NCBI RefSeq assembly: GCF_013403865.1
Contig: NZ_JABFDK010000001.1
Span: forward strand, 496,001 to 560,000
Reading direction: 5' to 3'
Length of the DNA stretch: 64,000 nucleotides
Source: Winogradskyella costae
GTDB taxonomy: Bacteria > Bacteroidota > Bacteroidia > Flavobacteriales > Flavobacteriaceae
A program made the position numbers and the translations under genes. Each line of letters begins with the position of its first letter. The stretch's first letter is position 1. Positions 3,846-16,509 of the stretch are shown here, one piece after another. The notes under the pieces were generated by a model. The model did not search any database. It worked only from the letters and a program-made list of their open reading frames with translations, and was not told the DNA's origin.

Positions 3846-4146
3846 TTATCTGATTGTAATAATGTGGTTTGGTAATGCCTCGCTAAACGATATATACCAG
3901 ATTCGTTCTGCTATTACTGAGTGTGTTTGTATTTCGACTAATGATTCCGACGCCATATTTAAAAATCTGATAAAGTCCTATGTAGAACCTCCACTCGAAC
4001 CCTCAACTATAATTAAGGGCAACGAAATAGCTACTCTTCTATGTTGAGAGGTCAATCCAAAATTTTCAGACGCAGGAAAATTCTTCGTAAGTTTATAAAC
4101 ATCCTCTACTAGATTTAAACTTAATTTGTAAATCCTTAAGAGACAT
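3846..4146 (-). pseudogene. Decayed four-helix-bundle protein (23S rRNA IVS-type family)
   Basis: The minus strand from an ATG at 4146 reads MSLKDLQI, like the family opening, then after a frame change reads VEDVYKLTKNFPASENFGL, TSQHRRVAISLP, an in-frame stop (TAG), and DFIRFLNMASESLVEIQTH plus SVIAERIWYIS. These segments follow, in order, the consensus of the small four-helix-bundle family first known from 23S rRNA intervening sequences (YKLTKxFPxxExFGLTSQIRRAAVSIPSNIAEG..., FIRFLNIALGSLAELETQ). At least one frameshift or deletion and one internal stop break it. It sits between cysN and cysQ, so it was probably a late insertion into an older operon. Confidence 0.82.
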
Positions 4147-4215
4147 TATTAAGATTATAAATTCCTTCTCTAAAGATTCACCGCATTACAGTCTCACCGT
4201 TTCACGGCATCTCTG

Positions 4216-5472
4216 TTATATAATCATCCCTGCACCAATAGTTTCATTGGTTTGTTCATCTATAATAATAACACTTCCTGTTTGACGATTTTTTTTGTAA
4301 GCATCATAGAATAAAGGCTTAGCAGTTCTAATAGACATGCGAGCGATATCATTCATTTCAACTTTATCAATACCTTCTATTCTGTGCAACGTATTAATAT
4401 CTATTTTATACTTTAACTCTTTAACCATACCAATAGATTCATTTGTGGTATGTTTAATAACGACTTTAGTACGCGCTTGAATTGGTTTTGTGCTCATCCA
4501 TGTTACAAGAACCTCTATATCTTGACTAATTTCGGGCACGTTGTTTTCGCGGACAATCATATCTCCACGACTATTATCTATTTCGTCCTCTAATGTCATC
4601 GTTACAGACATAGGCGCAAAAGCTTCGGCTATTTGCTCACCATTGAGTTCTATCGTTTTTATGGTCGACACAAATCCTGAAGGTAAAGATTTCACTTTAT
4701 CTCCTGGTTTAAAGACACCACCATCAATACGACCTGCAAAACCTCTGTAATCTTGATTTTCTAACGTATGCGGACGAATTACTGACTGAATAGGGAAACG
4801 ACAATCTACCAAATTATGATCGCTTGAAATATGAACTGTTTCTAAATGGTACATTAACGTACTTCCACCATACCAATCCATATGCTCTGAACGGTTAACC
4901 ACATTATCTCCATTTAAAGCTGAAATAGGAATAAACTGAATATCACTAATCCCTAACTTAGAAGAAAACGCTTTAAAATCTGAAACTATTCCGTTATAAA
5001 CATCTTCGTTATACTCTACTAAGTCCATTTTATTTACACAGACAATAGCATGAGGAATACGCAATAACGATGCTATAAACGCATGGCGATGGGTTTGCTC
5101 TAACATCCCTTTTCGTGCATCAATAAGTATAATGGCTAAGTTAGCTGTAGAAGCACCTGTTACCATATTACGTGTGTACTGTATGTGACCTGGCGTATCT
5201 GCTATAATAAATTTACGCTTTGGAGTCGCAAAGTAACGATAGGCCACATCAATTGTAATCCCTTGTTCGCGTTCTGATTTTAAACCATCTGTAAGCAAAG
5301 ACAAATCCACATAATCAAACCCTTTAGATTTACTAGACTCCTCTACGGCATCTAATTGGTCTTGAAAAATTGATTTACTATCATATAACAAACGTCCAAT
5401 TAGTGTACTTTTTCCATCATCTACACTTCCTGCTGTTGTAAAACGTAATAATTCTATATCTTGATATTCCAT
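4216..5472 (-). CDS. cysN: Sulfate adenylyltransferase subunit 1 (GTPase CysN)
   Basis: Translation-factor-like GTPase that drives ATP sulfurylase: with CysD it makes adenosine 5'-phosphosulfate (APS) from sulfate and ATP. G1 is GSVDDGKST at residues 15-23, G3 is DTPGH near 93, and G4 is NKMD near 148; beta-barrel domains 2 and 3 follow. The 418 residues resemble other stand-alone CysN proteins, and the C-terminal APS kinase domain of fused CysNC forms is absent, consistent with the separate cysC nearby. An 89-base gap separates it from cysD. Confidence 0.96.
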   Translation of the reverse strand: MEYQDIELLRFTTAGSVDDGKSTLIGRLLYDSKSIFQDQLDAVEESSKSKGFDYVDLSLLTDGLKSEREQGITIDVAYRYFATPKRKFIIADTPGHIQYTRNMVTGASTANLAIILIDARKGMLEQTHRHAFIASLLRIPHAIVCVNKMDLVEYNEDVYNGIVSDFKAFSSKLGISDIQFIPISALNGDNVVNRSEHMDWYGGSTLMYHLETVHISSDHNLVDCRFPIQSVIRPHTLENQDYRGFAGRIDGGVFKPGDKVKSLPSGFVSTIKTIELNGEQIAEAFAPMSVTMTLEDEIDNSRGDMIVRENNVPEISQDIEVLVTWMSTKPIQARTKVVIKHTTNESIGMVKELKYKIDINTLHRIEGIDKVEMNDIARMSIRTAKPLFYDAYKKNRQTGSVIIIDEQTNETIGAGMII

Positions 5473-5486
5473 GTATTAAATTTTAT

Positions 5487-5521
5487 AGCTGTTGACTTTC
5501 TGCTCTTAGCCCTTAGCTCAA
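5487..5521. repeat. Five tandem degenerate heptamers (consensus AGCTCTT)
   Basis: The cysD-cysN spacer reads AGCTGTT GACTTTC TGCTCTT AGCCCTT AGCTCAA, a run of imperfect 7-bp units. A similar heptad run with another core lies at 44522-44556. Function is unknown; it may be slippage-generated intergenic filler. Confidence 0.5.
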
Positions 5522-5561
5522 TTTTCTTTATTCTATTATCTTAATTTTAGTTTCTCACCTC

Positions 5562-6467
5562 TTAAAAGTACCCCTGTTTTTTACGATCCTCCATAGCTGT
5601 TTCTGCACGTTTATCATCTGCTCTACCACCACGCTCAGTTGTACGTGTTGTAGCAATTTCTTCAATGATTTTATCTAAAGTATCTGCTTCAGATTCTACA
5701 GCTCCAGTAATTGGCATATCACCACAAGTGCGGTAACGAATAGTCATATTTACGACCGCTTCATTTTCCTTTAATTTAATAAATTCTGAGTTTGCTAAAA
5801 TCACACCATCTCTAACCACACAGTCGCGTTGGTGTGTATAATAAAGTGACGGTAAATCTATATTTTCAAGCTTAATGTATTCCCAAACATCCATTTCTGT
5901 CCAGTTAGAAATTGGAAATACCCTAAAATGTTCACCATAATTTTTACGACCGTTAAATAGATTCCATAATTCTGGTCTTTGATTTTTAGGATCCCATTGT
6001 CCAAATTCATCTCTATGTGAAAAGAAACGTTCTTTAGCTCGAGCTTTTTCCTCATCTCTTCGAGCCCCTCCCATTGCGGCATCTACTTTGTACTCTTCAA
6101 GTGTATCTAATAAAGATACGATCTGAAGTGAATTACGTGATGCATCTGCTCCAGTTTCTTCTTTTGCACGGCCTTTATCAATAGCTTCTTGAACAGAACC
6201 TACTATAAGTTTAACTCCAAGTTTTTCTACTAATTCATCACGAAACGCAATAGTTTCAGGAAAGTTATGACCTGTATCAATATGTATTAAAGGGAAAGGT
6301 ATTTTAGCAGGAAAAAACGCTTTCTTAGCTAAATGCGTCAACAAAATAGAATCCTTTCCACCAGAAAATAATAATACTGGATTTTCAAATTGTGCTGCTA
6401 TCTCTCGAATCACAAAAATGGCTTCCGATTCTAATTCTTTTAAATGATTAATTACGTAATTACTCAT
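5562..6467 (-). CDS. cysD: Sulfate adenylyltransferase subunit 2 (CysD)
   Basis: Catalytic, PP-loop subunit of the CysDN ATP sulfurylase: it adenylates sulfate to APS while CysN hydrolyses GTP. The PP-loop SGGKDS is at residues 35-40, with GGARRDEEKARAKE, TEMDVWEYI and the C-terminal GGRADDK downstream, all typical of CysD. The 301 residues match the family's usual 300. Its start lies only 5 bases past the cysC stop, so both belong to one transcript. Confidence 0.97.
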   Translation of the reverse strand: MSNYVINHLKELESEAIFVIREIAAQFENPVLLFSGGKDSILLTHLAKKAFFPAKIPFPLIHIDTGHNFPETIAFRDELVEKLGVKLIVGSVQEAIDKGRAKEETGADASRNSLQIVSLLDTLEEYKVDAAMGGARRDEEKARAKERFFSHRDEFGQWDPKNQRPELWNLFNGRKNYGEHFRVFPISNWTEMDVWEYIKLENIDLPSLYYTHQRDCVVRDGVILANSEFIKLKENEAVVNMTIRYRTCGDMPITGAVESEADTLDKIIEEIATTRTTERGGRADDKRAETAMEDRKKQGYF

Positions 6468-8465: not shown

Positions 8466-11400
8466 ATGAAAAATCTTTACCTTTTATTAATTGCATTATG
8501 TCTAAGTAATATCAGTTTTGCACAAACCACTGCTGATGCTTGGATAAATGAAATACATTATGATAACGTTAGTAATGACATCAATGAAGGTGTAGAAATT
8601 GTCATAACGAATACTACTACTTATCCTTTAGAAAATTGGTCAATTGTAATTTATAATGGAAGCACAGGAACTACCAATGGTACCATAAACTATACCATCT
8701 CATCTTCTACAAATATTGATAGTGCTTCAGGCTTCACAACAGCATGGCAACCGCATAGTGGCTTACAAAATGAAGTTGAAGCTTTAGCATTGGTTTATAA
8801 TGGAACTACCTTAGTGCAATTTATTTCTTACGAAGGTATTGTTACCGCTACCGGTGGTATTGCTGACGGATCCACTTCAGTTGACATTGGTGTTTCTGAA
8901 ACAAACACTACTGCATTAGATCTATCTTTACAATTATCAGGATCAGGAACGACATATTCAAATTTCACATGGCAAGCTCCCGCAACTGCCACAACTGGTA
9001 CTATAAACAATGGTCAATCGTTTGTTCCTTGCACTACACCAATAAATGTTTCTTCGTTTACCGCAACAGGTGGTGATCTTGAAGTCGATTTAGATTGGGT
9101 TAATGGAACCTGCTTTGACGAAGTCATGATAGTAGCGAAAAATGGTTCAGCTGTTACCGCAGTACCGACAGGAGATGGCTCTTTATATAATGCAGATGCC
9201 ATATTTAGTTTTGGAACCGAAATTGAACCTGATGAATATATTGTATATAAGGGCACGGGGGTTTATGAAGAAATAACAGGGTTAATAAACTCAGACACTT
9301 ATTATTTCAAAATTTTTGCACGTAAAGGCACATCGTGGAGCACAGGAATTGAAGCAAATGCAACACCAGACCTAATTGTTTTAAGCAACAGCATAATAAT
9401 TACCGAAATTATGATAAACCCAGGATATGTTGGTGATACAAGCGGTGAGTATTTTGAAGTTTACAACACAACAGACACAGATATAGACATGGCTGGTTGG
9501 ACTATTTCAGACACACAAACTCCTACTCCGAATGATATACACGTTATAACTCCAGTTATACCCGCTACTACCGTTATAGTGCCAGCTTATGGTTTTGCCG
9601 TATTAGGCCGTAACTCAGATAGCGCAACAAATGGTGGGATAGTCATAGATTATGAGTATAGTGGTTTTAACATCGCTAATGACCATGACGAAATTGCCAT
9701 ATCGGATTTAAGTGGCACCCTAACAGATGTTGTAGAATACGATGATGATGGAATTTGGCCAAGTATAAGCACAAGTGGTCAAGCAATGATATATACAGGT
9801 AGCAATATTGAAGATAATAATGATGGGTCACTTTGGACTTTTGCTACAGTGTCTGAAGGTATTGATGTCGATCACGGATCTCCGGGTATTAATGGTACAG
9901 ACCAGATTGTATCCTATTTGATATATGTAAATGCTGCATGGAATTTAACACCTTCTGAGCTTACGGATACAAGAATAGCTTATATCAGAAAAGATGAAAG
10001 CACTACTTTCTCTACTGACGTAGATTTAAATAATCTTTTTATTGAAGAAGGTGCCAGTTTAACTATAAACACAGGAGTTACCTTAACAGCAACTACTGTA
10101 ACATTAGAGTCGGCTTCAGATCGTTTTTCAAGTTTAATTTCAGACGGTACAATTTCAGGTACCGTTAACTACGAACGTTTTGTAAACACACTTAGTACAG
10201 GTACCGGAGGAAACGATTTAATCTCACTTCCTTTAATGCCAATAGGTCTAACATTTGATACCTTTATTACAAATGGAGATAATGCTACTGAAATAACAGA
10301 TAATAGTACATTTTATGCTTTTGCACCATATAATAATACAAATGTAGCTTATGAAAACTTCCTTATGAACGCAACCGATGTTTTACTGAAAGCAAAAGGT
10401 TATAGAGCTGCTACAGATAGTGGAGATCTTTTAACATTTTCGGGTACACCTGATACCGGTACTGTAAATATTACGATAGATAAACCTAATTTAGGAAGCG
10501 AATGGAATCTTATTGGTAATCCATACACAAGTTATGTAGATGCAGATGCATTTTTAAGTGATGCAAATAGCGCCTTATTAGATCCTTTTGCAGTCGCTAT
10601 ATATGCCTACAACAGTGGAATCTATGGAGGAGAAGCACCAACAATTAGTAACTTTACTGTTATTAATAAAGCAACGATATCAACATTAACTGAAGAAAAC
10701 TTTAATATAGCACCAGGTCAAGGTTTCTTTGTGGCGTCAAACGATACTGGAGGAAGTATAGCATTTACACCTGATATGCGCACATTAAGTGGAGATGATG
10801 ATTATATTGCTGGTAGAACGTCTAATGAAAGTGAATTCTTTAAGTTAAATTTAATGGGGTCTCAAACCTATTCTACAAGTATTTTCTTTAATTCTAATGC
10901 TAGTTTAGGTTTAGATCCTGGATATGATGCGGCAGTTTATGGTGAAGATTCTGAGAATTACCCTATATTTTCTCATTTAGTTGAAGAAAACACAGGGAGA
11001 GCAATGGCTTTACAAGCTATCGATAATACAGATTTAACGTCTGTTTCTATTCCGTTAGGTGTAAATGCGAACCAAGGAGAAGCGATTACTTTTAGTATAG
11101 ACGCTTCTAACCTATCTAATACAACACTAGTATACTTAGAAGATACGGTTGCTAATACCTATACGTTACTTAATTCTGGAGATTATACATTAACACCTAG
11201 CATTAACTTAAGTGGTACAGGTCGTTTTTACTTACAGATTTCCAATAGCACACTATCTACAATAGATAATACCTTAGACCAATTAAATATTTACAATAAC
11301 AGGGCAGATAAAACCATTATTATTGCTGGTCAATTATCAGAACCGACTACAGCATCTGTTTATGATGTACAAGGACGCATAGTGTCTACAACAAAATTAC

Positions 11401-11513
11401 TAACTGCAGATAGCACACAAGCTATAAATGTGAGTCAATTAAATAATGGCATCTATGTTGTAAAGGTGCATAATGCAACTCAAAATAAAATCCAAAAAGT
11501 GATTTTGAGATAA
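8466..11513 (+). CDS. Secreted lamin-tail-domain protein with type IX secretion sorting domain
   Basis: Start chosen at 8466: the 15 extra residues upstream (from 8421) do not look like a signal peptide, while the ATG at 8466 opens one, MKNLYLLLIALCLSNISFAQ. About 1,015 residues. In order: a lamin-tail-like domain (WINEIHYDN, about 25-170), a fibronectin-III-like stretch (about 190-300, ending YYFKIFARKG), a second lamin-tail domain (ITEIMINPG, EYFEVYN, about 310-450), a long beta-rich region, and a C-terminal ~80-residue type A sorting domain (VYDVQGRIV, LNNGIYVVKV). Known for the family: such proteins cross the outer membrane by the T9SS and are attached to the surface or released. The substrate is unknown; I see no catalytic domain. 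It is a lone gene with a strong terminator. Confidence 0.88.
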   Translation: MKNLYLLLIALCLSNISFAQTTADAWINEIHYDNVSNDINEGVEIVITNTTTYPLENWSIVIYNGSTGTTNGTINYTISSSTNIDSASGFTTAWQPHSGLQNEVEALALVYNGTTLVQFISYEGIVTATGGIADGSTSVDIGVSETNTTALDLSLQLSGSGTTYSNFTWQAPATATTGTINNGQSFVPCTTPINVSSFTATGGDLEVDLDWVNGTCFDEVMIVAKNGSAVTAVPTGDGSLYNADAIFSFGTEIEPDEYIVYKGTGVYEEITGLINSDTYYFKIFARKGTSWSTGIEANATPDLIVLSNSIIITEIMINPGYVGDTSGEYFEVYNTTDTDIDMAGWTISDTQTPTPNDIHVITPVIPATTVIVPAYGFAVLGRNSDSATNGGIVIDYEYSGFNIANDHDEIAISDLSGTLTDVVEYDDDGIWPSISTSGQAMIYTGSNIEDNNDGSLWTFATVSEGIDVDHGSPGINGTDQIVSYLIYVNAAWNLTPSELTDTRIAYIRKDESTTFSTDVDLNNLFIEEGASLTINTGVTLTATTVTLESASDRFSSLISDGTISGTVNYERFVNTLSTGTGGNDLISLPLMPIGLTFDTFITNGDNATEITDNSTFYAFAPYNNTNVAYENFLMNATDVLLKAKGYRAATDSGDLLTFSGTPDTGTVNITIDKPNLGSEWNLIGNPYTSYVDADAFLSDANSALLDPFAVAIYAYNSGIYGGEAPTISNFTVINKATISTLTEENFNIAPGQGFFVASNDTGGSIAFTPDMRTLSGDDDYIAGRTSNESEFFKLNLMGSQTYSTSIFFNSNASLGLDPGYDAAVYGEDSENYPIFSHLVEENTGRAMALQAIDNTDLTSVSIPLGVNANQGEAITFSIDASNLSNTTLVYLEDTVANTYTLLNSGDYTLTPSINLSGTGRFYLQISNSTLSTIDNTLDQLNIYNNRADKTIIIAGQLSEPTTASVYDVQGRIVSTTKLLTADSTQAINVSQLNNGIYVVKVHNATQNKIQKVILR

Positions 11514-11540
11514 GTTCTCTAATTAACATCGCTTACCGTA

Positions 11541-11575
11541 AAAAATGCGCTAAACTAAGTTTAGCGCATTTTTTT
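11541..11575 (+). terminator. Rho-independent terminator after the secreted protein
   Basis: A perfect hairpin of 15 bp (11541-11555 with 11559-11573; core TGCGCTAAAC/GTTTAGCGCA) with a TAA loop ends in a T run. It starts 28 bases after the stop codon. Confidence 0.9.
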
Positions 11576-11580
11576 ATCTT

Positions 11581-12240
11581 AAGAATATATTTTAAAAGCG
11601 AACACTGCTTGTAGAGCACCTAATGTAAAACTAAGTTGTTACTCTTTTATAGATATACTATTACGGTTGTTATTAGGTAGTATATCCAAAGCGTACTTGC
11701 TATTAAGCATTTAGCACCTCAAACTTTTTTGAACTAGCCTATATGATTATACTTATATACTAGTAATCTTATTAAAAACATACCATCAAGATTTAATTAA
11801 AATTATCTTACATAGACTAAAAAACAATGATTACAATATACAGTTTCTATTTACAATTTGTAAACTCTTCTATTTTCTAAAACACATATTAATAGGGCTA
11901 CATCCATATGTAAATAGCTCTATTTTTAGACTTATGCCTATAAGTATGACGCTATGATGCAACGTGACGAAAAAAGTAATTATACGATTCGTATTTATGG
12001 ATATTTAATGATATATTACATATCTTGCGCCTGTAGTTGATTACAAGTAGGAACTATTTCACACGTTACGTTTAGAGTATTTTAAATGCAACATGAACAG
12101 AATACCACTTTAAATTAAAACCATTATATTAAAGTCTATTTTTTTAATTTTTGAAGCCTAAGATTTTAAACATCAATTATTTAAAAAAAATAGCATTTTA
12201 ACGAAAAAACTATTATTTAAGATAAACCTTTTCACATTAT
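11581..12240. other. Non-coding AT-rich stretch before the peptide cassette
   Basis: About 660 bases with frequent stops on both strands. I see no coding region, RNA or repeat here apart from scattered short AT-rich palindromes. Confidence 0.5.
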
Positions 12241-12243
12241 AGG

Positions 12244-12272
12244 TTGATAACTAAATAATTTTATTATTTTTG
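12244..12272 (+). promoter_or_regulatory. Promoter of the peptide-kinase-nucleotidyltransferase cassette
   Basis: TTG at 12244-12246 (-33 element) and TATTTTTG at 12265-12272 (exact TAnnTTTG) are separated by 18 bases. Transcription would start near 12278, leaving a leader of about 18 bases before the peptide start codon. Confidence 0.65.
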
Positions 12273-12295
12273 AACTCAAATTTAGGGCAAGAGCC

Positions 12296-12457
12296 ATGAA
12301 GAAAGAAAACAATACAGATAAAATCACTCGTAAGCAAGCCATTTCAAAAATGGGTAAATATGCAGCAATAACTGCTGTAGGAACATTTGTGATTTTAAAT
12401 CCGCTTAAGTCGCAAGCACAGTCACCACCTGATGCAGGAGGCGATCCTTTCAGTTAA
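12296..12457 (+). CDS. Small exported peptide, 53 residues, candidate modified-peptide precursor
   Basis: Opens with the charged segment MKKENNTDKITRKQ, then AISKMGKY, a hydrophobic stretch (AAITAVGTFVIL), a KSQAQS segment resembling a signal peptidase I site, and a short tail, SPPDAGGDPFS, ending in a C-terminal serine. The N-terminal part looks like a signal peptide with a Tat-like TRK rather than RR. A strong promoter lies just upstream, and the kinase-like gene begins 16 bases after the stop. Inference: this is the substrate of the two downstream enzymes, by analogy with lasso-peptide clusters in which an HPr-kinase-like enzyme phosphorylates a precursor's C-terminal serine. No homologue is recognised with certainty. 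Confidence 0.72.
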   Translation: MKKENNTDKITRKQAISKMGKYAAITAVGTFVILNPLKSQAQSPPDAGGDPFS

Positions 12458-12472
12458 TTTTTTAAGTATATT

Positions 12473-13609
12473 TTGAATAGTGATTTAGCACCAACATACA
12501 AGAGGATGTTTGGTGATTATTGGATATTATGGTATTCAATTTCTAATAGTTACAGTGTTATAAATTCAGATTTCGAGTTACTTTTAGATACTTACCTTAC
12601 CTCCAAAACGCAGACCGAATTTTCAAATTCCATTTCTAATTATATTTCTGTTTCCGATAGCTTAAACCTTTCTGAAACGATTCATAATTACCTCAAGGAT
12701 TGCAACAATCCTTACAGTCTACCCAATATAAGCTCAGAGACTTTAGACACGTCTCACCGAAATATTTCTAAATATTATTTATTTGGAACTAAGAGAATTC
12801 TAATTCACTACAGCTCTGAATTAGTACTAAAAACAGTTCATCCTGCTATTGCTCATTATTGCAAAAAGCACACAGAAGCGCCAGATGTAATATTCGATAT
12901 TTTTTTAAAGCATAACAATTTACACCTCTTTAAGAATGGGAAATTATTATCTTGTGTTCCGAAAAGAGAGTATCATCATATGCAGGGTAAATTTATTATG
13001 CATTTACTCTGTTCTTTACATCACAAAACAGAACAAGATTGGATTGGAACACTTCATGGTTCAGCCATAACAGATGGTAATACATCTATTCTTTTTGTAG
13101 GAAAATCTGGAAAAGGAAAAAGCACCTTATCAGCATTGTTGGCAACCAATGGTTTCGAACTATTAGCTGATGATGTATCTCCATTACTTTCCGAAAACGA
13201 ACATATATATTATAACCCCTCCTCTATTTCCATAAAAAAAGGTGCTTTTGAGCTACTACAACCGCTAGTTAACAATTTTGACAACTTACCCATAGTGGAG
13301 TTCAATGCCACTAAAGGCCAATTAAAATATATGCCCTGCGCAAAACCGAAATACAATCATTACCCTTGTGGTGCGATTATGTTAGTGAATTACCAACCAC
13401 AATCAGAAACCATAATAGAGCCTATTTCTATAAAACACGTTTTAGAAACTATTATAGAAGACTCTTGGTTATCACCAAACCCTAAACATGCTCAACAGTT
13501 TTTGGACTGGTTACAAAAAGTTAAATTATACCAAGTAACTTATAGTAATACGGATTGTGTATCTTCTGAAATTTCAACTTTATTCAAACAATTAAATCAC
13601 GAAAATTAA
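12473..13609 (+). CDS. HPr-kinase-like protein with PqqD-like N-terminus
   Basis: The 378-residue protein has Walker A GKSGKGKST at residues 210-218, followed by FELLADDVSPL at 228-238, which matches the LVADD segment of the HPr kinase / PEPCK-like fold. It is not the PTS regulator HprK itself: it lacks that protein's N-terminal domain and is not near a PTS gene. Residues about 16-55 (WYSISNSYSVI, LLLDTYL, TEF) loosely resemble PqqD-type small helical domains that bind RiPP leader peptides. The start is TTG at 12473, 16 bases after the peptide; a later ATG at 12506 is possible. Likely role, inferred: phosphorylation of the peptide just upstream. Confidence 0.75.
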   Translation: MNSDLAPTYKRMFGDYWILWYSISNSYSVINSDFELLLDTYLTSKTQTEFSNSISNYISVSDSLNLSETIHNYLKDCNNPYSLPNISSETLDTSHRNISKYYLFGTKRILIHYSSELVLKTVHPAIAHYCKKHTEAPDVIFDIFLKHNNLHLFKNGKLLSCVPKREYHHMQGKFIMHLLCSLHHKTEQDWIGTLHGSAITDGNTSILFVGKSGKGKSTLSALLATNGFELLADDVSPLLSENEHIYYNPSSISIKKGAFELLQPLVNNFDNLPIVEFNATKGQLKYMPCAKPKYNHYPCGAIMLVNYQPQSETIIEPISIKHVLETIIEDSWLSPNPKHAQQFLDWLQKVKLYQVTYSNTDCVSSEISTLFKQLNHEN

Positions 13610-13640
13610 TAGCTTATATTAGTCTCCTGTATTAAAATCT

Positions 13641-14693
13641 ATGGACAGCTTAGCTACTACATATCAAAATATCGCAGATATCCTGAGTTTTGAAACTCCA
13701 AATTCTAAACTAGAAAAAACGATTAGTCACCCTTCTTTTGATTGGGACATTATAGTTATTGAAGGCAGCAAGAACTTAATGTTACCCGCGCTATATTGCA
13801 GATTAAAAGCAAAAAAACTTCTTCATTTATTACCAGAAGAATTGACTAATTACCTCAAAGAAATTACCAGTATAAACAGATCGAGAAACCTAAGAATACT
13901 TAATCAAGTACAGACCATATCACAAATACTAACCCAACATAATATAGACCATGTGTTTCTAAAAGGCACAGCCCTATTAGCTTCAGGATGCTATAATGAC
14001 CAAGGAGAGCGTATGGTCGGAGATATTGATATATTAGTTGAAAAATCGAAAGTGTATAATGCATTTGATATACTAAAGAATTCAGGTTATGACAAAACCT
14101 TCGGTTATGCTTATAATAAAAAAGACTTTAGACATCTTGATCGCTTAATGTCAAAAGACGAGCTAGCAGCAATAGAACTTCATACAGAACTTTTAAATAA
14201 AAGACATTGGCCCTTAATGAATATACCATCAATTCTCAATTCTAAAAAAATTAAGAACTTGATTCCTGTTCCAAATACATACGACTTAAGCAAACACCTC
14301 ATATTGAGTTGGCAGCTAAATGATAAAGGTCATTACTACAATGCAATAAGTTTAAAATCGGTTTATGACCTTATTTCTATAGAAACAAACAAAAATAAAA
14401 AGTGCATAGACATTTTGTTAAATTTAAAATATGGACAATCCTATTTGGAGTTGGCAAAATACTATTTTCCTGAGTTCGCTGATATTACTTCTAATAGTTA
14501 TATGAAATACAGAGTTTTTTGCTATAAAATGAAACTGTCCTTTAGACCTCTACGAATAACTATTAATAGCGTCAAAAGAACTATTCAATTTATAAAAAGT
14601 CGCTTTTACTTAATTTGCACTAATAAAAGTTATACAGAACACATCATAAAAGAGAAATTTCTTAATAAAAGAAAACGTTTTGATAATTCTTAA
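13641..14693 (+). CDS. Nucleotidyltransferase-family protein (NTP_transf_5-like)
   Basis: The 350-residue protein carries the pol-beta-type signature of this family: FLKGTALL at residues 106-113, YNDQGER, then GDIDILVE from 127, with the two metal-binding aspartates of the DxD pair. Helix-rich flanks follow. The C-terminal ~60 residues are very basic (RPLRITINSVKRT, KEKFLNKRKR). It starts 31 bases after the kinase-like gene and shares its transcript. In lasso-peptide and similar clusters this family occurs with HPr-kinase-like enzymes, so modification of the same peptide is the best inference. The donor nucleotide and acceptor are unknown. Confidence 0.78.
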   Translation: MDSLATTYQNIADILSFETPNSKLEKTISHPSFDWDIIVIEGSKNLMLPALYCRLKAKKLLHLLPEELTNYLKEITSINRSRNLRILNQVQTISQILTQHNIDHVFLKGTALLASGCYNDQGERMVGDIDILVEKSKVYNAFDILKNSGYDKTFGYAYNKKDFRHLDRLMSKDELAAIELHTELLNKRHWPLMNIPSILNSKKIKNLIPVPNTYDLSKHLILSWQLNDKGHYYNAISLKSVYDLISIETNKNKKCIDILLNLKYGQSYLELAKYYFPEFADITSNSYMKYRVFCYKMKLSFRPLRITINSVKRTIQFIKSRFYLICTNKSYTEHIIKEKFLNKRKRFDNS

Positions 14694-14781
14694 TTTCTAC
14701 CCTCTCATTATCGCATAATTTATCAAAGTCTTCATTCTTCGAAATCCTGATATTTCAACCTAAAATCAAACCATCATTTTT

Positions 14782-14811
14782 CGTTATTAAATAAAATAAC
14801 GGCGCTTTTAT
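14782..14811 (+). terminator. Weak terminator after the peptide cassette
   Basis: CGTTATT (14782-14788) pairs with AATAACG (14795-14801), followed by a broken T-rich stretch. The stem is short and AT-rich. Confidence 0.4.
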
Positions 14812-14907
14812 TCCTGATAATCAAATAAAAACATTTAATAATTTAATTTTCTATTTTTTTTAAATCCCATTAGCTTTTTTTGATTATTATTACAATAAGT
14901 TTACCCC

Positions 14908-14915
14908 TATATTTG
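14908..14915 (+). promoter_or_regulatory. -7 box of the outer-membrane barrel gene
   Basis: TATATTTG is an exact TAnnTTTG match, 45 bases before the start codon at 14960. The nearest TTG upstream (14880-14882) is 25 bases away, slightly too far. Confidence 0.45.
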
Positions 14916-14959
14916 TTTTATAATCTATAAAGTTTACCTTTGGACAAAATTATTTTAGT

Positions 14960-15529
14960 ATGAAAAAAATACTTTTACTAGCATTAATAACATTTTGCAC
15001 ATTCTCTTTTGCCCAAAGACGAAACGACGATTGGTCTCTTAGTGTTGGTGTTAATGCTATCAATAGTTTAGGGAGTCGATCACCATTTAAGAGTCCAGGT
15101 GACTGGAGCTTTCAGACCCCATTTTCTGCTGCAGCTGAATATCGTTTTGCTTACCAATTTGCAATAGAGCAATCCATTACGTTCAATGGGTTTAATGATG
15201 ATGAAAGTATTGATTTCATCCCAACAAATGAAGACTATAATTATTTATCTTTAGATACCCATGTTAAATATTATTTTGGCGAACTTATTTTTGGTCGTGG
15301 TAGAAATGATTGGTTTGACATATATGCCAATGCAGGTTTAGGTTTCTTTAATATAGATGAGACTAACATATCTGTAAACTTAGGTGGTGGTGTATTATTT
15401 TGGTTAAACGAAAATAGAACTTTTGGCTTAAGAGCTCAAACAATAGCTAAATTTGCTTATGACTCCTCTAATAATGGTTACGATAATAATCATTATCAAT
15501 ACCATTTGCAGGCTGTATTTAAGCTTTAA
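14960..15529 (+). CDS. Outer-membrane beta-barrel protein
   Basis: 189 residues with a signal peptide (MKKILLLALITFCTFSFAQ, cleavage after the AQ) and then alternating beta-strand patterns (DWSLSVGVNAIN, PFSAAAEYRFA, YLSLDTHVKYYFG, DIYANAGLGFF, VNLGGGVLFW, YQYHLQAVFKL) ending in an aromatic/hydrophobic strand, as expected of a small 8-stranded porin-like barrel. The cargo or partner is unknown. It is monocistronic, with its own -7 box and a strong terminator, so it is probably separate from the peptide cassette upstream. Confidence 0.8.
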   Translation: MKKILLLALITFCTFSFAQRRNDDWSLSVGVNAINSLGSRSPFKSPGDWSFQTPFSAAAEYRFAYQFAIEQSITFNGFNDDESIDFIPTNEDYNYLSLDTHVKYYFGELIFGRGRNDWFDIYANAGLGFFNIDETNISVNLGGGVLFWLNENRTFGLRAQTIAKFAYDSSNNGYDNNHYQYHLQAVFKL

Positions 15530-15550
15530 TATTGTAATATAAGATTAAAA

Positions 15551-15579
15551 AAAAGACTCACAATAGTGAGTTTTTTTTT
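15551..15579. terminator. Bidirectional terminator between barrel protein and MtfA-like gene
   Basis: ACTCAC/GTGAGT stem (15556-15561 with 15666-equivalent arm at 15566-15571) with an AATA loop, flanked by A-rich and T9 tracts, so it can work on both strands. It lies 27 bases after the barrel gene. Confidence 0.8.
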
Positions 15580-15651
15580 GTACCTATTTTAAAATAGCAT
15601 TCTCTGTAAATTAATAAAAAGACAGGTTCATTTTTATTCTTAGAATAACAT

Positions 15652-16509
15652 CTAATAGCCTTTAAATTTAAAATTAAGCATTTGCTTCATACACTGGTAT
15701 AATTCCGGAAATTGAGATTTAAATTCTGAAGGGGTTTCTATAAAGTTTTCGAGTAACACAGCAAAAAATTCATACTGGTTGGTAAACGCGTATGCTCTAA
15801 AATATTTTGAAGTAATTAAGTTTAGTCTAACAGACTCATGCCTTTGTAAATAGGTCGTTAATCTTTTAAAGCCTTGATTAAATATTAAACTACTTATATC
15901 ATTGTTTTTAGACGCATTTAAGTGTATCGCATGACCAAACTCATGAATACCAAGATTAAGATTATCATCACCGATATCATACCCTTGTTGAAAATCTTCC
16001 CACGAAAATACAATAGTCTTTAGATGAGGATTTACTTCTCCTTTATGAAACGATTTATTAATTTGAGAGAAATATGCCTTAGGATATATAATAACCGTAT
16101 CGAGAAGATCCAATTGATATTTTTTGAACCCAAAACTTAACATGGTTGCGGTAGCAGCAATTGCGACTTTCATGTCATCTGTGATGATCAAATTTTGTTT
16201 GCCTATAAATGTATTTGTTTGAATAAATTTAGAAACTCTATGCTCAAATTGACGCTGATGTCTTAATGACAATTTCCTAAAGAATGAATTCTCATTTTTT
16301 AAAATCTCAAACTGTACTTGTGATAACTTATTTAGTTTTAAATAACGCTTTATAAAGATGGGCTTTCTATATACTGATGCATAATAAAATTGAAAAATCT
16401 TTAACAATCTATAAATTATAAAAAGAGCTATTAAAACAACACCGAGTGGTACTATATAATTAGAGATTAACTCCGATTCAAAAATTTGTTGCTCAGTCTT
16501 AGATACCAT
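15652..16509 (-). CDS. MtfA-like zinc-dependent peptidase (M90 family)
   Basis: 285 residues: an N-terminal membrane helix (about 19-36), then a soluble domain with HEFGH at residues 189-193, the zinc-binding HExxH of the MtfA/peptidase M90 family, and a downstream YEFFAVLLENF segment expected to give the third zinc ligand. Upstream family features (QFEHRVSKFI, YPKAYF, IVFSWEDFQQG) also fit. E. coli MtfA modulates the Mlc repressor and is soluble; the membrane anchor here points to a different target. A sugar symporter is divergently placed next to it, which may be coincidental. Confidence 0.85.
   Translation of the reverse strand: MVSKTEQQIFESELISNYIVPLGVVLIALFIIYRLLKIFQFYYASVYRKPIFIKRYLKLNKLSQVQFEILKNENSFFRKLSLRHQRQFEHRVSKFIQTNTFIGKQNLIITDDMKVAIAATATMLSFGFKKYQLDLLDTVIIYPKAYFSQINKSFHKGEVNPHLKTIVFSWEDFQQGYDIGDDNLNLGIHEFGHAIHLNASKNNDISSLIFNQGFKRLTTYLQRHESVRLNLITSKYFRAYAFTNQYEFFAVLLENFIETPSEFKSQFPELYQCMKQMLNFKFKGY

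Follow-up and report, generated by a model that had tools for sequence, protein, structure and literature searches.

A small conserved peptide and two putative tailoring enzymes associated with a class of type IX secretion cargo in Flavobacteriaceae

Why should a bacterium encode a 53-residue peptide directly in front of a kinase and a nucleotidyltransferase? This question is raised by a locus in a 64,000-nt stretch of the Winogradskyella costae contig NZ_JABFDK010000001.1 (hereafter the window; genome G000, contig C11 in our numbering), in which genes for the peptide, an HprK-like kinase and an NTP_transf_5-type nucleotidyltransferase follow each other on the plus strand. An earlier note, made from the sequence alone, had placed the three genes correctly and had pointed out the motifs GKSGKGKST and LLADDVSPL in the kinase and KGTALL and GDIDILV in the nucleotidyltransferase, all of which are present. 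It regarded these genes as a minimal tailoring cassette. The three-gene core stands, but its limits were set too narrowly, leaving out a gene for a cargo protein of the type IX secretion system (T9SS) upstream and a β-barrel gene downstream. The T9SS cargo partner was thus overlooked, and it is the association between the peptide gene and this class of cargo genes that we describe here.

Association of the peptide gene with T9SS cargo genes

In the window, the order on the same strand is T9SS cargo gene, peptide, kinase, nucleotidyltransferase and β-barrel gene (Table 1). The cargo protein contains lamin-tail domains and a C-terminal module of about 400 residues, which ends in a Por_Secre_tail sorting domain (42.7 bits against a cut-off of 27) at the very C-terminus. 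Partner proteins from other loci are alike beyond this sorting tail, since their last ∼400 residues align. The genome of the window (4.1 Mb, 99.71% complete) shows 79 matches to the sorting-domain family TIGR04183, 77 of them over the cut-off, so that such an upstream neighbor should be rare by chance.

For linkage, we used 42 peptide open reading frames from loci L031-L077, including those of six named Winogradskyella genomes; a search of 299 Flavobacteriaceae genomes gave 39 peptide places. For 38 of the 42 peptides, a co-directional gene with a T9SS tail lies no more than 3 kb upstream, and for 26 of these it lies within 200 bp. Three of the other four peptides (L069-L071) are located at contig edges. 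Neighbor clustering likewise places a T9SS-sorted protein family near the cassette in 30 of 35 loci, and the outer neighbors vary by genus. The conserved neighborhood therefore also takes in the T9SS gene and, less constantly, the β-barrel gene; a member of its family is found immediately after the nucleotidyltransferase at 19 of the 35 loci, in L054 in opposite orientation.

A peptide that belongs to the cargo is expected behind cargo genes. Two genomes found only in a phylum-wide sample, G383 and G597, bear on this expectation: each has one kinase as far as found, with the nucleotidyltransferase beside it and no peptide within the 18 kb fetched. Both genomes hold six peptides, away from the enzymes, and seven or six modules. 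Eleven of these 12 peptides begin 11 to 160 bases behind a module gene, the twelfth being the second of a tandem. The two genomes share their genus with G131, which is itself part of our alignments, and are thus new by genome and not by genus.

Conservation and co-occurrence of the components

With a threshold of E 1e-10, the kinase was detected in 29 of the 299 genomes and additionally in the six named Winogradskyella genomes, which encode the closest named kinases found (58-83% identity). The order peptide-kinase-nucleotidyltransferase is present at 25 of 35 loci and, with two peptides, at three further ones, while a single locus is ordered peptide-nucleotidyltransferase-kinase. Kinase and nucleotidyltransferase without a peptide were seen at two loci (L039 and L050, the contig of the latter beginning within the kinase), and a lone kinase at four, namely L061, L063 (where the contig ends), and L058 and L064, whose contigs measure 4-5 kb.

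The peptide was found in 32 of the 299 genomes, 28 of which are kinase-positive. The single kinase-positive genome lacking it, G048, has a contig that begins within the kinase gene, and completeness is 82-92% for the four genomes with a peptide but no kinase. The nucleotidyltransferase occurs in 27 genomes, with one match each and never without the kinase; the two kinase-only genomes of this pairing (G067 and G151) are both incomplete. Module matches of at least 200 bits were obtained in 32 genomes, comprising 28 with and four without the kinase, and one genome carries the kinase only. This 200-bit line was our own choice: all eight matches at 171-250 bits are partial and, partial matches apart, the remaining T9SS proteins listed score below 171 bits. 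Since at most six candidates were scored per genome in this run, the per-genome numbers are lower bounds. Fisher's test gives p 5.5e-34 or lower for each pairing, uncorrected for relatedness. Contrasts within genera agree in direction: in each of the congeneric pairs G255/G028 and G261/G038, one genome holds all parts and the other none at the thresholds used. In G055 and G149, all parts are present, though spread over several contigs.

Among eight close relatives, the mean ratio of nonsynonymous to synonymous change (pN/pS) is 0.23 for the peptide (28 pairs), 0.31 for the kinase and 0.42 for the nucleotidyltransferase. Together with its homologues, this ratio identifies the peptide gene as a conserved coding gene. 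The earlier note had named two conditions under which its cassette reading would fail. The first, a peptide without conserved homologues, is contradicted by the 32 genomes; the second, enzyme pairs lacking a peptide upstream, does occur at L039, L138 and L139. The three genomes concerned contain peptides elsewhere, behind T9SS genes or a T9SS remnant (L066), and the link between enzymes and peptide therefore survives such isolated enzyme pairs.

Candidate modification and role of the peptide

The peptide consists of a start resembling signals for twin-arginine translocation (Tat), TRKxxIxKMG, a hydrophobic segment and a tail of the type Ser43-Pro-x-x-x-Gly-Gly; its first half is conserved in the alignment of 32 sequences and reads ITRKEAIKKMGKYAALTA. 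Among the invariant residues are Arg12, Thr26 and Ser43, the last of which sits just after the signal-like segment. By analogy to paeninodin, the earlier note had suggested phosphorylation of a C-terminal serine. The alignment rejects this idea, because the C-terminal residue is variable and a serine in only 4 of 32 peptides, as opposed to the internal Ser43 in 32 of 32. This serine is also kept in all 12 peptides of G383 and G597 and in nine of ten additional peptides from dispersed loci; the tenth of the latter, L076, has a tyrosine instead, and no kinase match was obtained in its genome. The tail behind Ser43 is conserved and not diversified (SPPDPGG; SPExPGxGF in G383 and G597). Export of the peptide probably uses the Tat pathway. 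TatC is present in the genome of the window and the first arginine of the motif is found in 32 of 32 sequences, but the second position is lysine in 29 (R-K in place of R-R).

The identity of the kinase as HPr-kinase-like is borne out by a structure model, which shows the HprK/PEPCK fold with P-loop, histidine and Asp-Asp. H195, K216 and Asp233-Asp234 are invariant in 32 aligned kinases. Its best named family is HprK_rel_A (NCBIfam TIGR04352; E 2e-14, 53.3 bits), the cut-off of which (200 bits) is not reached; all 32 aligned kinases match this family at E ≤0.01. The match to Pfam Hpr_kinase_C (E 3e-4) is under the cut-off. In the model, residues 9-77 form three strands followed by three helices. 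PF05402 (PqqD) occupies the same place in two kinases from Alphaproteobacteria (L108 and L109, both scanned with Pfam), and the profiles are colinear. These observations suggest an N-terminal domain that resembles PqqD and other RREs, the recognition elements of ribosomally synthesized and post-translationally modified peptides (RiPPs). A fold comparison of the whole model spanned residues 84-378 only and is neutral on this domain.

The nucleotidyltransferase matches NTP_transf_5 (PF14907) with E 2e-29 and 103.4 bits, above the gathering score of 31.2, in agreement with its initial assignment. In addition to the residues in Table 1, E179 and H181 are invariant in 31 aligned sequences. Searching solved structures with its sequence returned nothing at E 0.1. 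By eye, neither enzyme has a signal peptide, and both should therefore act in the cytoplasm.

Several known systems invite comparison. The lasso peptide kinases PadeK, ThcoK and BsfK are HprK-like and target a serine of the precursor, and the reaction of BsfK is accelerated by the RRE protein B1 (PMC9266682, PMC10368454). The His-Lys-Asp-Asp motif is common to them and to the kinase described here. In contrast to the separate B1 protein of the lasso systems, the RRE-like domain would here be part of the kinase, and the peptide differs by its signal-like segment, its internal invariant serine and the absence of lasso enzymes. The Transglut_core3 leader peptidase (PF13471) gave no match in the genome of the window, the cyclase family not having been searched, and a lasso cluster is accordingly disfavored. 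Closer in enzyme content is pseudomycoidin, where PsmK and PsmN act on one serine, adding a phosphate and then one or two hexoses (PMC9266682, PMC8498205). Pseudomycoidin and the locus described here both combine an HprK-like kinase with a nucleotidyltransferase-like protein; pseudomycoidin, however, is a Bacillus lasso product with no link to secreted cargo. The third relative is the HPr-rel-A system, which, from its family names, consists of an HprK relative and a peptide chaperone of the PqqD type (TIGR04353, PqqD_rel_X). The kinase of the window falls well below the cut-off of the corresponding family (see above), and no substrate peptide is named in the entries.

Based on these observations, we propose that the peptide is a ribosomally made companion of one class of T9SS cargo and that the locus also encodes the enzymes modifying it, a reading that we consider probable but by no means certain. 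The peptide gene follows a T9SS cargo gene, in many cases at a distance of a few bases. In the cytoplasm, the RRE-like domain of the kinase would bind the peptide by its conserved N-terminal half, and the kinase would phosphorylate Ser43. The NTP_transf_5 protein could then transfer a nucleotidyl or sugar group to this phosphate, in the manner of PsmN, which acts on pseudomycoidin once PsmK has done so. The Tat-like signal would direct export, and cleavage near A-x-A would leave a short peptide starting at or beside the modified serine. Beyond the inner membrane, this peptide may act with the module-bearing cargo as a ligand, tether or maturation cofactor. While the association of peptide and cargo genes is observed directly, we infer the chemistry of the peptide as well as its role on the cargo, the latter from linkage and co-occurrence only.

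A number of observations weigh against this proposal. The pairing holds in one direction, since 18 regions surrounding other module genes contain no peptide (the downstream side of L135 is cut by a contig end), among them L120, L121 and L122, full-module T9SS genes of the window's own genome without an adjoining peptide, and G383 and G597 have one peptide-less module each. Peptide L073 is a real miss with no T9SS gene upstream, the upstream genes of L066 and L075, counted among the 38, are no more than short remnants retaining a sorting tail, another open reading frame separates T9SS gene and peptide in L054, and in the window itself 782 bases lie between them. Two weaker peptide places outside the 42, G197:C15 and G295:C24, show neither a peptide open reading frame nor a recognized upstream module gene. 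In G283 (beside G069) and G275 (beside G055), the enzymes were not found, yet peptide and module are kept; G066 and G121 (a partial match) have a module of at least 200 bits without kinase or peptide. Regarding the modification site, T26 is invariant as well and T30 is present in 31 of 32 peptides. The RRE-like domain is affected by three results: the kinase N-terminus of 33 members did not match PF05402 among the 25 families listed out of 47, hhalign with this domain alone was weak (P 0.0056), and an NCBIfam scan of the alphaproteobacterial kinase L115 gave no PqqD model. Finally, only 5 of 11 alphaproteobacterial loci (see below) have a large secreted-type protein nearby.

Alternatively, the enzymes could act on another target, such as the T9SS cargo, a glycan linker or lipopolysaccharide, with the peptide as an unmodified adaptor or export chaperone. 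We hold this unlikely, because both enzymes are presumably cytoplasmic, the kinase appears to bear a domain of the peptide-binding type, and Ser43 is invariant in the alignment and replaced by tyrosine where the genome has no kinase match. Another possibility is a free secreted natural product (a bacteriocin, pheromone or similar) that is phosphorylated, decorated and released, with the T9SS gene as a mere neighbor. An RRE-like domain and tailoring enzymes follow RiPP logic, the precedents from lasso systems are themselves small peptides, and at 14 of 35 loci a 285-residue HExxH-type family, a peptidase by eye, is found close to the cassette. We nevertheless regard such a product as quite improbable: the tail is conserved instead of diversified, a T9SS gene precedes 38 of 42 peptides and 12 further ones, and neighbor clustering, in which neighbors were not annotated singly, gives no constant core-adjacent family except the T9SS and β-barrel (19 of 35) families.

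A remnant or variant of a lasso cluster with C-terminal serine phosphorylation is very improbable. Lasso clusters hold HprK-like kinases and nucleotidyltransferases alike, and the kinase motif His-Gly-Gly-Gly-Lys-Ser-Asp-Asp is retained, but PF13471 is unmatched, a C-terminal serine is rare and the peptide carries a signal-like hydrophobic segment. The idea of a tailoring cassette without lasso machinery, which had been put forward before, is supported by the lack of a PF13471 match, by the conserved gene order and by the RRE-like domain in the model. A toxin-antitoxin or defense pair, suggested by the resemblance of the nucleotidyltransferase fold to MenT-type toxins, is hardly credible, since this fold is common to many transferases, no antitoxin-like partner was recognized, and the 27 genomes with a nucleotidyltransferase have one each and always the kinase.

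If the companion-peptide proposal is followed further, a more specific role can be imagined. In Porphyromonas gingivalis, the PorU sortase joins T9SS cargo to a seryl group on a sugar, the linker (SAGA) of the anionic lipopolysaccharide (PMC13086638). By analogy, the decorated peptide (phosphorylated, glycosylated or nucleotidylated) might serve as an attachment or docking group: after export, its free end or its decorated serine would be bound by the module or joined to the cargo by the T9SS sortase, so that a RiPP pathway would replace the seryl-sugar linker. The alphaproteobacterial cassettes might have an equivalent function for adhesins that are secreted by a different route. A tether role is tempting but unproved, and we consider this extended version doubtful. 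The P. gingivalis linker is a product of sugar-pathway enzymes and not a gene-encoded peptide, and the parallel is conjectural.

RiPP-type tailoring is known mainly from secreted small molecules. Here, RiPP-like machinery is tied to one class of T9SS cargo, genome after genome, within one family. The enzymes are of known kinds, and we regard the system as a probable form of peptide tailoring guided by an RRE, although it may well turn out to be a new kind of secretion accessory. If the peptide contributes to displaying or fixing the cargo, it would partly explain the surface retention of such proteins in Flavobacteriaceae, and pairs of HprK-like and NTP_transf_5 proteins of unknown function, including those on alphaproteobacterial plasmids, would gain a substrate and a role. 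In the open-access literature, we found no modified peptide dedicated to T9SS cargo, nothing joining type IX secretion with HPr kinase, and nothing on TIGR04352, TIGR04353, HPr-rel-A or HprK-related. The terms HPr, kinase and nucleotidyltransferase did not turn up by text find in the available text of the RRE-Finder paper and of a 2025 paper on RRE definition.

Relatives outside the family and further features of the locus

Two plasmid records match the kinase of the window, both alphaproteobacterial. Of 28 distinct alphaproteobacterial plasmid records obtained, 12 were opened, and 11 of the 12 loci combine the kinase with an NTP_transf_5-type gene and a small Tat-like peptide; the twelfth (L119) has neither nucleotidyltransferase nor peptide. 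These peptides show an RR start, a hydrophobic stretch and A-x-S. Those of L109, L114 and L116 are missing from the gene tables, which are incomplete; in L109, an unannotated Tat-like peptide of 94 residues (5118-5402) lies just upstream of a PqqD-HprK fusion on plasmid pMt-1 of Methylobacterium tardum. The nearby secreted-type proteins are cadherin- or Ig-like in L108, L115 and L116 and a β-helix in L114; that of L110 was assigned by size and place only. A profile built from seven alphaproteobacterial peptides added four more (L110, L111, L117 and L118), and the flavobacterial peptide profile, run against a small database, matches 5 of the 11 (E between 3e-4 and 0.03). Common descent of both peptide groups is likely, but not proven by these matches.

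In a sample of 395 genomes from the phylum, kinase relatives beyond Flavobacteriaceae gave matches that start only at profile residue 180 or later. No peptide was seen at 25 short loci of these relatives (L083-L107, 3.1-3.5 kb), three of which (L087, L088 and L101) have an NTP_transf_5-like neighbor. A mobile or phage origin was considered and rejected; a scan of viral contigs with a short P-loop pattern, which is insensitive, revealed no relative.

The features of the locus are collected in Table 1. The kinase and nucleotidyltransferase genes are separated by 31 bases, as proposed before, and peptide and kinase genes by 15 instead of the proposed 16. Upstream of the peptide, the earlier note had described a promoter, of which TATTTTTG, presumably a –7-like element, is kept at most close loci, while the proposed –33 box (TTG at 12244) is not kept among the eight close relatives. 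An Rfam scan of 11400-15600 matched no RNA element around the cassette.

Table 1. Positions of the cassette, its neighbors and conserved residues within the window
Feature	Coordinates	Strand	Evidence
T9SS cargo protein, 1030 amino acids	8421..11513	+	Pfam LTD 3e-14, Por_Secre_tail 7e-11; module 483 bits
–7-like promoter element (presumed) TATTTTTG	12265..12272	+	kept at 7/8 Winogradskyella-type loci
Companion peptide (proposed), 53 amino acids	12296..12457	+	homologues in 32/299 family genomes; alignment; pN/pS 0.23
Ser43 codon, candidate modification site	12422..12424	+	invariant, 32/32 aligned peptides
Kinase, RRE-like and HprK-like, 378 amino acids, TTG start	12473..13609	+	
Kinase N-terminal domain, residues 9-77, RRE/PqqD-like	12497..12703	+	model secondary structure; PF05402 position in two alphaproteobacterial relatives; colinear profiles
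Kinase P-loop GKSGKGKST, residues 210-218	13100..13126	+	G210, S212, G213, G215, K216 invariant (n=32)
Kinase Asp233-Asp234 of His-Lys-Asp-Asp motif	13169..13174	+	invariant alongside H195, K216
NTP_transf_5 nucleotidyltransferase-fold protein, 350 amino acids	13641..14693	+	Pfam PF14907
Nucleotidyltransferase Lys108-Gly109	13962..13967	+	invariant, 31/31
Nucleotidyltransferase Asp128-Ile-Asp130, putative metal-binding pair	14022..14030	+	both Asp 31/31
OMP_b-brl outer-membrane β-barrel protein	14960..15529	+	PF13505 3e-9; frequent, not constant neighbor

Directly before the start codon of the peptide, an inverted repeat GGC-loop-GCC (12286-12295) is present at 7 of 8 Winogradskyella-type loci, with GGG and CCC as arms in L034; outside these loci, it is not evident by eye. 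The HExxH-type protein of the window is encoded convergently at 15652-16509. Upstream genes of polysaccharide or nucleotide-sugar type, with families named by eye, occur at L038, L039, L040, L045, L046, L051 and L053. Two contigs of G055 start inside peptide genes (L069 1-135 and L070 1-129), as if the assembly broke on repeated peptide sequence, and this genome may have extra peptide copies. In L066, positions 4080-6003 hold five tandem, near-identical open reading frames of 119 residues with a YIIYSP motif (GIY-YIG-like by eye), arranged as a repeat of about 391 bases.

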